Assembly: GCA_013002225.1 (NCBI GenBank)
Contig: JABDKL010000014.1
Span: 1 to 43,181, forward strand
DNA: 43,181 nucleotides
Source: Winogradskyella sp.
Lineage (GTDB): Bacteria; Bacteroidota; Bacteroidia; Flavobacteriales; Flavobacteriaceae
Direction of reading: 5' to 3'
Below the pieces are notes generated by a model. The model had not been told where the DNA came from. It was given only the letters and a program-made list of their open reading frames with translations, and searched no databases. The position numbers were made by a program, and so were the translations under genes. The stretch's first letter is position 1; each line of letters starts with the position of its first letter. Positions 32,362 to 40,955 of the stretch are shown here, piece by piece.

Positions 32362-33588
32362 TTAGTAATATCTACAGTGACTGCGATATCTACATCTCCA
32401 GTGTCTATGACAATAATTGTCTTCTGGAACGTACTCACATAGTTCGCCTCCATGAGAACTGTTACCAGAAACTACTTCTAGAACACCTTTTACATAACCT
32501 GGTCCAATTTCTAAATCACAGTTGGTTCTAATTTTGGTGTAATAACAGTTACCTACAAAAATGTACGCCCATTTACCAATTGTACCATTACTATTAGCAC
32601 CACTGAAACTAAAGTTTTCATGAGCGCCTACGGTTTCATCGAAGATCTTAGTTGCGTAACATGTGTTTTCGTAACGCTGGTAAACTCTCACTCTGTAATC
32701 ATTATGCCAATCCCAGTTTAAAGTTAAATCTGTTACTTTACCTTCACAATCATTACACTCCTCTTCATTTAATTCTAAACGGAAGTTAAAGTCAATCTTT
32801 GGTTTACTTATAGGTAAGCAAGAAACAGGATCTATTAAGGTTCCCCAAGTACTTAAACCAAAAGCACCAATATTAGAATCGTAATTAGCACCACCAGGAC
32901 CAATATGGGTTCCATAATTTGGAGTGTTTGGGTCATTTGGATCTGGTCTTTGTACTAAGCCAAAAGTTCCAGTTTCAATACAATCACCACCACTAGCAGT
33001 CACTGTACTTCTAGTATGGTCAATAAGGTAAAAGTTCATGTCTGCAGAATTTGAAGCCAAACCTGCAACACCTTCTTTTTTGTGTTCTCCACCAATAGCT
33101 TGCCATTCGGCCCAATCTTTCTTATGCTTAAACCATACGTTAAGTTCTACAGTACAGGTACCAGATATAGTAGTTCCTACTAAATTCGCTGTTCCATTAG
33201 TGTACTCCGTAAAGACTAAGTTTTCACCCTCTGCAGCACCATAGTAAGTGTCAGGATTAAAATAATCATCGGCATCTCTACTATTAGACCACCAAAAGTT
33301 TGATACAGGTTGAATGTGCCCATAAGGTGCTCTATCGGCATCGATAACCGTATAGGTTGCAGCAACTTCTGGTCCATTATTACCATAAGTTTTACTTGAA
33401 CTTACAACTAATCTTTCACTGGTTTCAGTAAATTGTAATTCAGGATCTTCCTCACCGTCAGAGACAATTATCTCTTTTTCGAAAAGTACTTCGTTCTGTT
33501 CTAGAGTAGAATCAGAGGCTGATTCTTTCTCACAACTGGCAAATACAAAAAGTATGGCCAGCATACATAGTTTAAAAAATTGTTTCAT
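32362..33588 (-). CDS. Surface lipoprotein paralogous to 27727-28905, with different C-terminal module
   Basis: A 408-residue lipoprotein with lipobox FASC (Cys19) followed by an acidic linker (residues ~20-65). Residues ~80-275 match the central domain of the other lipoprotein: IDADRAPYGHIQPVSNFWWS, YFNPDTYYG, VWFKHKKDWAEWQA, HKKEGVAG, NFYLIDHTRSTV, VQRPDP, ANYDSNIGAFGLSTWG. The C-terminal ~130 residues start at CNDCEGKVTDLTLNW and contain RVYQR, FSFSG, GTIGKWAYIFV and IGPGYVKGVLEVVSGNSSHGG, a beta-rich module I know from other secreted Bacteroidota proteins. It ends in an unusual His/Arg/Cys/Tyr tail (CHRHWRCRYRSHCRYY). A structural or binding role outside the cell is likely. Confidence 0.8.
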   Translation of the reverse strand: MKQFFKLCMLAILFVFASCEKESASDSTLEQNEVLFEKEIIVSDGEEDPELQFTETSERLVVSSSKTYGNNGPEVAATYTVIDADRAPYGHIQPVSNFWWSNSRDADDYFNPDTYYGAAEGENLVFTEYTNGTANLVGTTISGTCTVELNVWFKHKKDWAEWQAIGGEHKKEGVAGLASNSADMNFYLIDHTRSTVTASGGDCIETGTFGLVQRPDPNDPNTPNYGTHIGPGGANYDSNIGAFGLSTWGTLIDPVSCLPISKPKIDFNFRLELNEEECNDCEGKVTDLTLNWDWHNDYRVRVYQRYENTCYATKIFDETVGAHENFSFSGANSNGTIGKWAYIFVGNCYYTKIRTNCDLEIGPGYVKGVLEVVSGNSSHGGELCEYVPEDNYCHRHWRCRYRSHCRYY

Positions 33589-36283: not shown

Positions 36284-37321
36284 ATGGACAAAAACAACAA
36301 TGTATTTGATAATGTACTTCAACTTATAGGGAGTACTCCACTCATCAAATTAAATAGAATGACTGCCGATTTTGATGGTGAATTTTATGCTAAAGTAGAG
36401 GCATTTAATCCAGGTCATTCTTCTAAAGACAGAATTGCATTACATATCATCGAAGAAGCGGAGCGCCAAGGTATTTTAAAACCTGGCGATACAATAATAG
36501 AAACAACATCTGGCAACACAGGTTTTAGTATTGCGATGGTGAGCATTATAAAGGGCTATGAGTGCATTTTAGCAGTGAGTTCTAAGTCTTCTGGCGATAA
36601 AATAGACATGCTTAAGTCAATGGGTGCTAAAGTATATGTTTGTCCGGCTCACGTAAAGGCAGACGATCCGCGTTCGTATTATCAGGTAGCAAAACGTTTG
36701 CATGAAGAAATTAAAGGATCGATCTATATAAATCAATATTTTAACCAATTAAATATTGATGCACATTACCATACAACCGGACCTGAAATTTGGAATCAGA
36801 CGAATGGTGAAATCACACACTTAGTAGCATGTAGTGGTACAGGTGGGACTATTTCTGGAATTGCTAAATATCTTAAGGAACAAAATCCAGATGTAAAAGT
36901 TATAGGTGTTGATGCTTATGGTTCTGTCTTAAAAAAATACCATGAGACGCGCGAATTCGATGATAAAGAAATTTATCCTTATCGCATTGAAGGTCTTGGT
37001 AAAAATTTAATACCAACGGCAACCGATTTTGATTTGATTGATACGTTCGTAAAAGTTACCGATGAAGAGAGCGCACATACGGCAAGAGAAATAGCTAATT
37101 CAGAAGGATTATTTGTTGGTTATACAAGTGGCGCAGCAATGCAAGCGCTAAAACAACTACAAGAAGATGGTGAATTTAAAGCAACTGATAAGGTTGTTGT
37201 CATTTTTCCAGATCACGGATCAAGATATATGAGCAAAGTATATAGTGATAAGTGGATGGAGGACCAAGGCTTCTTTGATAGTAAAAACGAAGTTCATACA
37301 ACCATCGAGTATATTAAATAA
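36284..37321 (+). CDS. Cysteine synthase-fold PLP enzyme, candidate cysteate synthase
   Basis: A 345-residue fold type II PLP enzyme of the cysteine synthase / cystathionine beta-synthase family. The PLP lysine is Lys48 in NPGHSSKDR; the common form is NPxxSVKDR, so the segment is altered. The phosphate and carboxylate loops are TTSGNTGFS and [12 protein letters not shown], and [11 protein letters not shown] carries the C-terminal PLP contact. A standard reading is cysteine synthase or cystathionine beta-synthase. Because the next gene is an alpha-oxoamine synthase, I favour synthesis of cysteate (for example from phosphoserine and sulfite) for sulfonolipids; this is inference. A terminator and a promoter-like site separate the two genes. 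Confidence 0.8.
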
Positions 37322-37342
37322 AAAGATTAACGAATTAAGGAG

Positions 37343-37373
37343 CCTACCAATAATTTTTTGGTAGGTTTTTTTT
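37343..37373 (+). terminator. Rho-independent terminator after the cysteine-synthase-like gene
   Basis: 8-bp perfect stem CCTACCAA / TTGGTAGG with a 7-base loop and eight T residues after it. Confidence 0.85.
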
Positions 37374-37432
37374 GTTTTATTTAGACGGGATTACTTGGGA
37401 TAAATAAATTATGCAGTCATAATATTATTAAC

Positions 37433-37440
37433 TAATTTTG
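37433..37440 (+). promoter_or_regulatory. Putative -7 element for the alpha-oxoamine synthase gene
   Basis: TAATTTTG matches TAnnTTTG exactly and implies an untranslated leader of about 80 bases before the ATG at 37527. The -33 position has only TTA (37409-37411) at 21 bp. Confidence 0.45.
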
Positions 37441-37526
37441 CTGCAACTAACAAAACTAAAATATATTAAATCAATATTAATTATAATCAAAAATTCTTAG
37501 TATTGAACTAATATAAAAGACTACGC

Positions 37527-38786
37527 ATGAAGGATTTATTTGAAAAAATTTACAGAGACAAAGGACCCTTAGGAAAGTGGGCTGCACAAGCAGAAGGCTA
37601 TTTTGTATTTCCAAAATTGGAAGGCGAAATTTCTAACAGAATGAAATTTCAAGGGAAGGATGTCATTACCTGGAGTATAAATGATTACTTAGGATTAGCA
37701 AACCACCCAGAAGTTAGAAAAGTTGATGCTGATGCTGCCAAGCAGTATGGATCTGCTTATCCTATGGGTGCTCGTATGATGTCTGGACATACTGATCTGC
37801 ACGAACAATTGCAAAACGAGCTTGCCGCTTTTGTACAAAAAGAAGCAGCGTATTTGCTGAATTTTGGTTATCAGGGAATGGTGTCGACAGTAGACGCTTT
37901 AGTTGCTAAGGACGATATAATTGTTTATGATGTAGATGCTCATGCTTGTATTATTGATGGTGTTAGATTGCATCATGGTAAGCGTTTTACTTATAAGCAT
38001 AACGATATTGAAAGCTTAGAAAAAAATCTTGAGCGTGCTACAAAAATGGCAGAGCAAACAGGTGGTGGTATTCTTGTTATCTCAGAAGGTGTATTTGGAA
38101 TGCGCGGAGAACAAGGTCGACTAAAAGAAATTGTAGCGCTTAAGAAAAAATTTAATTTCAGATTATTTGTTGATGATGCTCATGGATTTGGAACCTTAGG
38201 AAAAACAGGTGCAGGTGCAGGAGAGGAGCAAGGCGTGCAGGCAGATATTGATGTCTATTTTGCAACTTTTGCAAAGTCATTAGCGAGTACTGGTGCTTTT
38301 ATTGCGGCAGACCAAGAGATAATCGATTATTTAAAATATAATTTACGTTCTCAAATGTTCGCTAAATCGCTTCAAATGCAACTCGTTGTGGGTGCATTAA
38401 AACGTTTGGATATGTTACGTACTATGCCAGAACTTAAAGAAAATCTTTGGACTATTGTAAATGCGTTACAATCAGGATTAAAGGAAAGAGGTTTTGATAT
38501 TGGTACAACTCAAAGTTGTGTTACACCAGTTTACCTAAAAGGAAGTATTCCAGAAGCTATGGCATTGGTTAGAGATTTAAGAGAAAATTACGGAATATTC
38601 TGTTCTATAGTTGTTTATCCAGTGATACCTAAAGGATTAATTTTACTTAGAATGATTCCAACAGCAACACATACTTTAGAAGATGTCAGAGAAACTTTAG
38701 ATGCCTTTGACGCTATTAGAGAAAGACTTCATAATGGAACTTATAAGCGCATGTCTGCCGCATTGATTGCTGCGATGGGTGAATAA
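37527..38786 (+). CDS. Alpha-oxoamine synthase, candidate cysteate (or serine) fatty acyltransferase
   Basis: A 419-residue fold type I PLP enzyme of the alpha-oxoamine synthase family, which joins an amino acid and an acyl thioester with loss of CO2. The PLP lysine is Lys250 in FATFAKSLAST, the DDAHG motif holds Asp217 and His219, and His139 (DAHACI) stacks on the ring. Members are serine palmitoyltransferase, KBL, BioF and the Flavobacterium johnsoniae cysteate fatty acyltransferase needed for capnine and gliding. The N-terminal GYFVFPKLEGEISNRMKFQGKDVITWSINDYLGL fits the lipid-forming branch rather than BioF. No other bio genes are near. With the cysteine-synthase-like gene upstream, the capnine role is the best reading, serine palmitoyltransferase the alternative. 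Confidence 0.85.
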   Translation: MKDLFEKIYRDKGPLGKWAAQAEGYFVFPKLEGEISNRMKFQGKDVITWSINDYLGLANHPEVRKVDADAAKQYGSAYPMGARMMSGHTDLHEQLQNELAAFVQKEAAYLLNFGYQGMVSTVDALVAKDDIIVYDVDAHACIIDGVRLHHGKRFTYKHNDIESLEKNLERATKMAEQTGGGILVISEGVFGMRGEQGRLKEIVALKKKFNFRLFVDDAHGFGTLGKTGAGAGEEQGVQADIDVYFATFAKSLASTGAFIAADQEIIDYLKYNLRSQMFAKSLQMQLVVGALKRLDMLRTMPELKENLWTIVNALQSGLKERGFDIGTTQSCVTPVYLKGSIPEAMALVRDLRENYGIFCSIVVYPVIPKGLILLRMIPTATHTLEDVRETLDAFDAIRERLHNGTYKRMSAALIAAMGE

Positions 38787-38812
38787 ATCCACATAGTTCT
38801 TTAATAAAAAAC

Positions 38813-38839
38813 GCTATCTCTTAGGATAGCTTTTTTTTT
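38813..38839. terminator. Terminator between the oxoamine synthase and the GNAT gene
   Basis: 6-bp stem GCTATC / GATAGC, 6-base loop and nine T residues; an A run upstream lets it also work for the convergent gene ending at 38838. Confidence 0.8.
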
Positions 38840-39956
38840 ATAAATTTTTTCTGAGTGTTTTTCTACGCTTATACACAACAGGATCAAAATGCTTCCATAT
38901 TTTATGTATGGCCACATTATCCTCTAATTCTGGTGTGCGGTAACACATTTCAATACCTTTTTTGGTAAAGGTTTCATAATATTCATTAAAAATAACAGCA
39001 TGTACACCTTTATTTTGATAGTCGGGATGAATGCCAATTAAATAAAAAATTACATCTTTACTATGCTTTTTTGCTTTTAAAACATGTGTAAAACCAATAG
39101 GAAACAATTTGCCTTTAGCCTTTTGTAATGCTTCTGCAAATCGAGGCATTACAATAGCAAATCCGACTAATGTATCATCTTCATCCACAACAAATTTTAT
39201 ATATTCTGGATTTACAAAACTCACAAATTTACTTTTAAAGTACTCCTTTTGTATATCCGTAATTTCTACAAAAGAAGCAAGCGAGGAATAACTCTGATTA
39301 AATAAATCAAACATGCGGTCTGCATAAGGCATAACCTCCTCTGTTTTAGTAAATTTTAAAGCTTTTAATTTATAGCGACGCTTAATGAGCTCCTGAGCTT
39401 TTTTAAACGTTTCTGGTTTCACATTCGCAAAAGGAAATTTACTTTCAGAATATTCCTTTTCGATTTTATAACCATGCTTAAAATAATGGTCAATATAATA
39501 AGGGTGATTATACCAGGTGATCATAGGTGCTATACTATCAAATCCTTCTGTCATCACGCCTACTTTGTCTAAATTAGAGAATCCAACTGGTCCTTCTGCA
39601 TAATCTAATTGGTGTTCTCTGCCTATTTTTTCAACCGTCTCTAATAATGCTTTACTGACTTCTAAATCATCAATAAAATCGAACCATCCAAACCTCATTT
39701 TTTTAATTGATTGATTCTTAACCTCGAGCCAGTTTATTATTGCAGCAACTCTTCCTACGACTTCATCGCCTTTATATGCCAGAAAAAATTGTGCTTCAGC
39801 ATCCTTAAAAATAGGGTTCTTATCCTTATTAAATGTTTCTAGTTCCTGTTTAATTATTGGTGGTACCCAAAATTTAGAATCCTTATATAGGGAAAAAGGA
39901 AATTTGACAAAAGTTCTTAAATCTTTTTTAGAGGTCGCTGGTCTTATTGTTATCAT
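38838..39956 (-). CDS. YghO-like GNAT-family acyltransferase
   Basis: A 372-residue protein of the YghO type: two GNAT-like halves. The first (~1-180) opens with IRPATSKKDLRTFVKFPFSLYKDSKFWVPPI and has the core strand AQFFLAYKGDEVVGRVAAIIN. The second (~190-365) includes KFVVDEDDTLVGFAIVMPRF and the acetyl-CoA-like loop IGIHPDYQNKGVHAVIF. Known GNAT enzymes of this kind move acyl groups to amines; a GNAT-type protein acts as ceramide synthase in Caulobacter. It is convergent with the oxoamine synthase, 51 bp apart, so N-acylation of the capnine or sphingoid amine is a reasonable guess, unproven. No signal peptide; cytosolic. Confidence 0.75.
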   Translation of the reverse strand: MITIRPATSKKDLRTFVKFPFSLYKDSKFWVPPIIKQELETFNKDKNPIFKDAEAQFFLAYKGDEVVGRVAAIINWLEVKNQSIKKMRFGWFDFIDDLEVSKALLETVEKIGREHQLDYAEGPVGFSNLDKVGVMTEGFDSIAPMITWYNHPYYIDHYFKHGYKIEKEYSESKFPFANVKPETFKKAQELIKRRYKLKALKFTKTEEVMPYADRMFDLFNQSYSSLASFVEITDIQKEYFKSKFVSFVNPEYIKFVVDEDDTLVGFAIVMPRFAEALQKAKGKLFPIGFTHVLKAKKHSKDVIFYLIGIHPDYQNKGVHAVIFNEYYETFTKKGIEMCYRTPELEDNVAIHKIWKHFDPVVYKRRKTLRKNL

Positions 39957-40041: not shown

Positions 40042-40929
40042 TTAATTTGATATGTTTTTATCCTGGTGAAAGTCTAATCGATAAGATGCACCAAAGGCAA
40101 TATTAAATACAGAGGGTGTGTCTTTAGTATTAAATGCAATATTAGCATCGAGCTGAAAATCTTTACTCCATAAATAAGCGCCTCCAAATCTAAAAATATT
40201 ATCGGCGTAGAAGTCACTATTAATGCCTTGCGCTTCACCAAAAACCACCCATTGTGGTGTAAAGGAATGCGTTAGCGTAAACACATATTGAAATTCGGAA
40301 AAGTCAGAACCAATTCGGTCCTTAATTAAATTCATAACAAATACCCATCCACCATTAAAATTATTTTGAGTAGCAATCATAACTTTAGGGCTAAATCCTT
40401 CAACATCAGGTGCTGTATAAGGATTGTTAGACGCATCGTAATTAGCACCAACAAATACAGATACTGCCGGAATTAAGGACTTCCACTTAAATTTTCTATT
40501 AGCGCGATAACTGTACAAATTAGGTTTTTCATCTTCGGCATTTTTGTAGGGATCGTAAATTAGATATTTTGCTCCGAGCGTAAAGTTTCTGAAATTAGAT
40601 CGCGGATTCTCTATGGGAATTTGTCCTGCATTAAATGTTTGGGTGTCATTTTGATAAACTCCATCTAACTGAAACTCTAATTGCTCCCATAACACACCAT
40701 ACCTAACAGCAAAATCAACACCAAAACCAGATACATCGTATTGTAAGGGTGTATGTTCTTCTTTAACAGTGAAACCTCCTAGTTCGAACTGTACAACACC
40801 AGTTCCGACTGAGAATGCACTTTCTGAGACACCTGGTCTATTAGAATTTATAACTTCGGTATACTGAGCAAATACAGCATTTGATACCAGATAGATTAGT
40901 AGAATAAAAAAGGATTTGAGCGTCTGCAT
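40042..40929 (-). CDS. Outer membrane transporter-like protein (phenol MetA degradation family)
   Basis: A 295-residue exported beta-barrel protein. From ATG 40929 the signal peptide is about 20 residues, cut near VFAQ. The mature part starts with NSNRPGVSESAFSVGTGVVQFELGG, the opening of the MetA-pathway/transporter family, then alternating strands and a C-terminal strand YRLDFHQ. Length and pattern fit a 10-12-stranded outer membrane barrel. The substrate is unknown. The start is fixed by a TATATTTG promoter element that overlaps an in-frame TTG at 40950. Confidence 0.75.
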   Translation of the reverse strand: MQTLKSFFILLIYLVSNAVFAQYTEVINSNRPGVSESAFSVGTGVVQFELGGFTVKEEHTPLQYDVSGFGVDFAVRYGVLWEQLEFQLDGVYQNDTQTFNAGQIPIENPRSNFRNFTLGAKYLIYDPYKNAEDEKPNLYSYRANRKFKWKSLIPAVSVFVGANYDASNNPYTAPDVEGFSPKVMIATQNNFNGGWVFVMNLIKDRIGSDFSEFQYVFTLTHSFTPQWVVFGEAQGINSDFYADNIFRFGGAYLWSKDFQLDANIAFNTKDTPSVFNIAFGASYRLDFHQDKNISN

Positions 40930-40947
40930 TGAATATAGGTTTAAAAT

Positions 40948-40955
40948 CAAATATA
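40948..40955 (-). promoter_or_regulatory. Putative -7 element of the transporter-like gene (start-deciding)
   Basis: Minus-strand TATATTTG (40955-40948) is an exact TAnnTTTG match 19 bp upstream of the ATG at 40929. The same 8-mer recurs 40 bp upstream at 40988-40995. The overlap with the TTG at 40950 rules that start out. Confidence 0.45.

Follow-up and report, generated by a model that had tools for sequence, protein, structure and literature searches.

A probable sulfonolipid locus in Winogradskyella sp. with a GNAT protein as candidate capnine N-acyltransferase

Which enzyme adds the second acyl chain to the capnine base of sulfonolipids? These lipids support gliding, trigger choanoflagellate development and affect inflammation (PMC9304779; here and below, statements on the literature refer to the searchable portions of the papers cited), and the descriptions of the capnine pathway leave the N-acylation gene unnamed. 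The question is raised by three neighbouring genes for proteins of 345, 419 and 372 aa on a stretch of 43,181 nucleotides from Winogradskyella sp. (contig JABDKL010000014.1 of assembly GCA_013002225.1; hereafter the window). The draft genome to which the window belongs, as contig C106, comprises 214 contigs with a total of 2,993,747 bases and has a completeness of 95%. A first inspection of the DNA (the original prediction) had described them as a cysteate synthase candidate, an oxoamine synthase and a convergent GNAT protein of one lipid pathway. All three open reading frames are intact and arranged in this way (Table 1).

The locus is likely to be a sulfonolipid locus of the capnine/sulfobacin type. 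CapA would form cysteate and CapB would condense it with a fatty acyl thioester to 3-ketocapnine and CO2, both steps being assigned by family. The GNAT protein would take the second acyl chain from acyl carrier protein or coenzyme A and attach it to the amino group of either 3-ketocapnine or capnine, and an enzyme encoded elsewhere would reduce the ketone, before or after N-acylation. A wider proposal, on which our confidence is evenly balanced, is that the GNAT protein is the missing sulfonolipid N-acyltransferase of the Flavobacteriales. It would descend from a ceramide N-acyltransferase, have switched from a serine-derived to a cysteate-derived base where CapB is the sole synthase, and possibly acylate 3-ketocapnine before reduction, and species with CapB that have lost the GNAT protein would accumulate free capnine.

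The cysteate enzymes CapA and CapB

The 345-aa protein scored 656.5 bits with the NCBIfam equivalog model NF053679 (cysteate synthase CapA) and passes its cut-off of 600, and all other models among the 25 listed of 39 matched remained under their own cut-offs. Its residues 42-50, NPGHSSKDR, are the altered PLP-lysine segment that had led to the original prediction of a cysteate synthase. Of the 16 rows above 500 bits (two of them the window's own gene), 15 show NPGH directly before S-x-KDR and the remaining one shows NPGQ. Below 500 bits are a paralogue from the same genome (L002, NPGNSVKDR) and two more distant neighbours of capB (NPGHSAKDR and NPGLSIKDR). Judged from these alignments, the NPGH-S-x-KDR segment is a CapA signature. 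The score with the curated model and the signature rule out an ordinary cysteine synthase, an outcome that would have contradicted the prediction. CapA matches above the 600-bit cut-off are present in 89 of 100 genomes of the same family (all survey counts include the window's own genome); 98 of the 100 match the CapA query at E 1e-90, a number that takes in cysteine-synthase-like paralogues. The reaction of the CapA family is the formation of cysteate from phosphoserine and sulfite; membership of the window protein is judged by its score, and cysteate production is assigned by family rather than by assay.

The closest relatives of the 419-aa protein in the PDB are 28eh (707 bits), which carries the name cysteate-C-fatty acyltransferase, and 7u7h (567 bits), which we take to be SulA of A. 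finegoldii; the best serine palmitoyltransferase (SPT) reached 242 bits. SulA is set apart from SPT by Lys281, where SPT has Ala (PMC9304779). The window protein has Lys280 at this site and retains the conserved Asn, His, Lys and Arg of the family as N52, H139, K250 and R375. In a set of 63 oxoamine synthases the diagnostic residue is Lys in 18/18 CapB proteins, Ala in 31/31 SPT-type enzymes and Asn or Ser in 14/14 others, and in a quick tree CapB forms a clade of 18 rows (support 100) apart from SPT and KBL-like enzymes. A grouping with KBL-like enzymes, which would have counted against the original prediction, did not appear, and active-site signature and tree both support the earlier claim that this synthase uses cysteate, a function assigned by family. 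The protein is, by family membership rather than by assay, a putative cysteate acyltransferase of the CapB/SulA type. A search of its own draft genome at E 1e-5 retrieved one further oxoamine synthase only, a KBL-like paralogue of the Asn type, and CapB is the sole long-chain-base synthase found there.

Because of the CapA score, the CapB lysine and the CapB clade, capA and capB can be regarded as the known capnine module. This module is established biology: the two genes belong with the closest known systems, namely the CapA/CapB/CapC pathway, Cys/CFAT/KCR of C. gleum, SulA of Alistipes finegoldii and Fjoh_2419 of F. johnsoniae, and CapA, CapB and 3-ketocapnine reductases have been described (PMC10191378, PMC11211663). 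The original prediction had ascribed both first steps to F. johnsoniae. This is correct for the acyltransferase (Fjoh_2419) but not for the cysteate synthase, which was reported from Capnocytophaga and Chryseobacterium gleum (PMC9304779, PMC11211663, PMC10191378).

No relative of four reductase sequences used as queries was found in the window, in agreement with the earlier notice that no ketone reductase is seen here, and the reductase is therefore assumed to be encoded elsewhere. In C. gleum and A. finegoldii the kcr genes are likewise not clustered with cfat and Cys (PMC11211663). Genome G252 offers a good 3-ketocapnine reductase candidate: a short-chain dehydrogenase/reductase (SDR) gene that shares its strand with CapB at a distance of 30 bp, the GNAT gene being convergent (L217 2992-6318). 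In genome G121 (L090 5839-7886) a similar SDR gene immediately precedes an SPT gene of the same orientation, and the two might form a ketosphinganine reductase pair.

The GNAT protein and its relatives

For the 372-aa protein Pfam reports the general GNAT domain alone, and comparison with PDB sequences gave weak or chance-level matches only. A tblastn search of plasmids retrieved relatives in 44 records, including YghO of E. coli, which is 23.5% identical over the whole length. YghO also represents CC_1154 of Caulobacter in our comparisons. A profile of 38 GNATs of the window protein's division aligned with one of 12 GNATs of the YghO division over 371 columns (probability 100, E 1.8e-80), and G68, R69, G122, P123, G282 and N347 are invariant across 56 rows from both divisions, one long-branch row being excluded. 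The two divisions are separated with branch supports of 100/99 in a hand-picked tree of 57 rows, in which 14 of 36 available GNATs represent the Flavobacteriaceae type, less one truncated row. One contains YghO and most SPT-linked GNATs of the set; the other contains the window clade together with Bacteroides and Prevotella, one member each from Chloroflexota and Clostridia, and a GNAT from an SPT operon (L056). A tree of 74 rows places the window protein in a clade of 24 rows (support 100/97). Of these, 23 come from the order Flavobacteriales, two being pieces of a single gene, and one comes from a different order; the SPT-linked GNATs of the same division are scattered outside this clade. 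By homology, the window protein is a member of the YghO/bacterial ceramide synthase superfamily, in the division that does not contain YghO.

A member of the superfamily would be expected to catalyse long-chain N-acyl transfer to a long-chain base; the window protein is placed in it by homology and context. The gene yghO (ECD_02850) is listed as the counterpart of CC_1154, which is needed for dihydroceramide formation (PMC9386255). CC_1154 was proposed to be the N-acyltransferase CerS (PMC11324152), and the Caulobacter enzyme was named bCerS and described as cytoplasmic and peripheral to the membrane; CerR was described as related to NDUFA9 (PMC11087976). In Caulobacter, N-acylation ahead of reduction is the proposal of one group (PMC11324152, PMC11087976).

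Gene neighbourhoods link the superfamily to long-chain-base synthases. On an E. coli plasmid record yghO stands beside an SPT-like gene and genes for an acyl carrier protein, an NAD-epimerase, a fatty acyl-AMP ligase and lptF/lptG. SPT-type matches (E 1e-64) occur in 10 of 149 genomes of the class Bacteroidia, and five of the ten have the SPT and GNAT genes next to each other in one orientation, with an NAD-epimerase gene after them. Such operons include members of both GNAT divisions, and comparable neighbours are found on plasmids of Rubrobacter, Streptomyces and Aureispira. Among the best 80 of 584 loci of the window protein's division, 11 have a relative of the synthase, the epimerase or the ligase in their flanks, in 10 of them the synthase and/or the epimerase. 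The window protein thus resembles bCerS and YghO in its full-length homology, in the invariant residues and in the recurrence of oxoamine synthase and NAD-epimerase neighbours; it differs by its separate division and by its position beside a cysteate enzyme instead of SPT. The GNATs of Bacteroides and Prevotella belong to the same division and are 37-39% identical to the window protein and 56-57% identical to each other. Prevotella matches more than 50% identical to a Bacteroides CerS reference have been reported (PMC10865984), and we infer that these GNATs are the CerS meant there. The difference is that, in the Bacteroides/Prevotella family code, all three genomes of the class sample have SPT and no CapB-type match.

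As a side observation, triads of oxoamine synthase, GNAT and NAD-epimerase on a Rubrobacter plasmid (L100 2707-6074) and a Streptomyces plasmid (L102 2763-7289, followed by a condensation-domain gene) raise the possibility that Actinomycetota may produce ceramide-like lipids.

The distribution of the two proteins agrees with a common pathway. In 148 genomes of Flavobacteriales, GNAT (threshold E 1e-40) is present in 50 and CapB in 84. All 50 GNAT genomes, which belong to nine family codes, contain CapB, and none of the 64 genomes without CapB contains the GNAT (Fisher 7e-17, uncorrected for kinship). When genomes at least 90% complete are considered, GNAT is present in 49 of 64 CapB genomes. 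Among the 50 GNAT genomes are two of family f64 whose GNATs are distant, and the tree places one of these two proteins outside the division. A further genome (G258, family f74) contains both CapB and SPT, with the GNAT gene beside SPT. In the 100 genomes of the family, 91 have a GNAT match (89 close, two distant only) and 97 a CapB match; 88 have both, nine have CapB without a close GNAT, one has GNAT without CapB (a genome 66% complete) and two have neither (Fisher 0.03). No SPT-type match was found in these 100 genomes, where the listed CapB-query matches (E 1e-60) are all at least 56% identical; a ceramide-type GNAT would therefore have no known serine-derived base to act on in this family.

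The simplest reading of the trees and neighbourhoods is that an ancestral ceramide-type N-acyltransferase may have been retained together with CapB in Flavobacteriales, and the best reading of homology and genomic context is that the window GNAT is a candidate N-acyltransferase for 3-ketocapnine or capnine. A gene for sulfonolipid N-acylation is not named in the searchable literature, which leaves most subscription papers outside and is no proof of absence in print. With a single candidate whose gene is linked to that of CapB across Flavobacteriaceae, the step becomes open to direct testing. If the assignment is true, it predicts which species should carry free capnine, and a single N-acyltransferase family serves ceramides and sulfonolipids alike. 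Free capnine occurs in the lipids of Capnocytophaga (PMC9304779), where the GNAT would then be expected to be missing or impaired, whereas C. gleum makes N-acyl sulfonolipids and would be expected to have the GNAT or a different enzyme for the step.

Synteny and alternative roles of the GNAT protein

Table 1. Features of the capA-capB-GNAT region (positions in the window)
Feature	Position	Strand	Details
capA, cysteate synthase (PLP fold type II)	36284..37321	+	345 aa; NF053679 656.5 bits; NPGH-S-x-KDR signature
Terminator-like hairpin, 14 pairs, capA-capB gap	37337..37371	+	consensus scan
capB, cysteate C-fatty acyltransferase (SulA/CFAT type)	37527..38786	+	419 aa; PDB relatives 28eh, 7u7h; Lys280; CapB clade
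Terminator-like hairpin, two-way, gap of the convergent capB and GNAT genes	38813..38830	.	consensus scan, both strands
GNAT protein, YghO/bacterial ceramide synthase superfamily; proposed 3-ketocapnine/capnine N-acyltransferase	38838..39956	-	372 aa
PF13557 (MetA-pathway of phenol degradation type) gene	40042..40950	-	Pfam 113.8 bits

The linkage of the two genes is conserved, and the absence of linkage that would have spoken against the original prediction did not occur. Of the 88 family genomes that contain both genes, 58 have CapB and GNAT convergent and at most 400 bp apart; in the others they are convergent within 4.3 kb (9), on different contigs (15) or far apart (6). In another family (f68), genome G252 has the SDR gene, CapB and the convergent GNAT gene side by side. 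Where the GNAT gene is absent or not adjacent, none of the ten capB neighbours tested was another acyltransferase; they were two sliding clamps, TsaD, a methyltransferase, a phosphoribosyltransferase, one protein each of the flavin reductase and YjeF types and three proteins without a Pfam match.

Several observations weigh against a role of the GNAT protein in the capnine pathway. A close GNAT is lacking in 34 of the 84 CapB genomes of the order and in nine of the 97 of the family. At class level, CapB-type matches (at least 56% identical, some partial, assigned by identity and not by the lysine) were obtained in 132 of 149 genomes, and a GNAT above 200 bits is present in 16 of these 132, or 17 with one split gene. 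Other lineages must therefore use another enzyme or leave capnine free. The window protein did not fall into the YghO division proper in the 57-row tree. Outside Bacteroidota, SPT co-occurs with the division in 17 of 20 genomes, but this evidence failed its control and was left unused: among 120 genomes from a single class of Chloroflexota (that of G392), 66 have an SPT-like match of at least 410 bits and only one has the GNAT. In family f2, CapB is within 10 kb of the GNAT gene in 0/19 GNAT genomes. Many of the viewed loci share a conserved block (YbaB, oligopeptidase B, capA, capB, GNAT, PF13557 gene, DUF4834), and a two-way terminator-like hairpin separates capB from the GNAT gene. The GNAT gene keeps closer to the PF13557 gene, which codes for an outer-membrane protein, than to capB: where capB is elsewhere, the two are still found together (L043, L045, L046, L048, L073). 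Three genomes (G031, G053 and G087) lack the GNAT gene at this place, so that capB and the PF13557 gene face each other directly.

The adjacency alone may therefore be passive synteny. The N-acylation step of the original prediction has the support of homology to YghO/bCerS and of genomic context and stays a proposal. One alternative accepts capAB as a true capnine module and explains the position of the GNAT gene by passive synteny; its product would acylate a different amine (of an amino acid, an amino sugar or a peptide), perhaps together with the PF13557 protein. The gene orders just described favour this explanation, as does the presence of the division in Chloroflexota, Clostridia and Spirochaetes (seen among the best 80 of 584 loci) and the fact that 69 of these 80 loci are flanked by no relative of the synthase, the epimerase or the ligase. 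However, the restriction of GNAT to CapB genomes within the order, the relatives in SPT operons scattered across the rest of the division and the recurrence of the CapB-GNAT adjacency in family f68 are difficult to reconcile with it, and we consider it unlikely.

Much less probable still is that the GNAT protein belongs to the sulfonolipid pathway as an O-acyltransferase for one of the lipid's hydroxyl groups, the N-acylation being performed by another enzyme. The many CapB-type genomes without a close GNAT would be in line with this, and roles within the division may be split, since relatives occur twice per SPT operon at three loci. Yet the characterised Caulobacter relatives are described as N-acyltransferases in the papers cited above, and the window's genome holds only one GNAT of this kind. 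The three operons with two GNAT paralogues each (L121 5795-10212, L131 5760-10317, L132 4548-8122) have the order SPT-GNAT-epimerase-GNAT or SPT-GNAT-GNAT, and perhaps one paralogue catalyses N- and the other O-acylation, or the two use different chains.

That the 419-aa protein might be an ordinary SPT, KBL or BioF at a locus unrelated to sulfonolipids is already contradicted and has a negligible probability: the models of these enzymes match it at E 1e-59 to 1e-89, but all scores are under the cut-offs (best for SPT 300.5 bits, cut-off 640), and the diagnostic Lys, the separate clade, 28eh as best PDB relative and CapA as partner all disagree with it.

Further features of the region and of the survey

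The PF13557 gene lies upstream of the GNAT gene and is probably part of the same operon. The consensus scan found five terminator-like sites in the region, compared to 2.4 +/- 1.7 in shuffled sequences. The hairpin in the gap between capA and capB (37337-37371) may uncouple or attenuate capB expression.

The CapB-type synthases found by identity in 132 of the 149 Bacteroidia genomes sampled suggest that the capacity to form the capnine base may extend well beyond the producers reported so far. The window also encodes a 408-aa protein without a Pfam match (32362-33588), and two similar open reading frames are located between capA and capB in genome G087 (L039 8003-9433).

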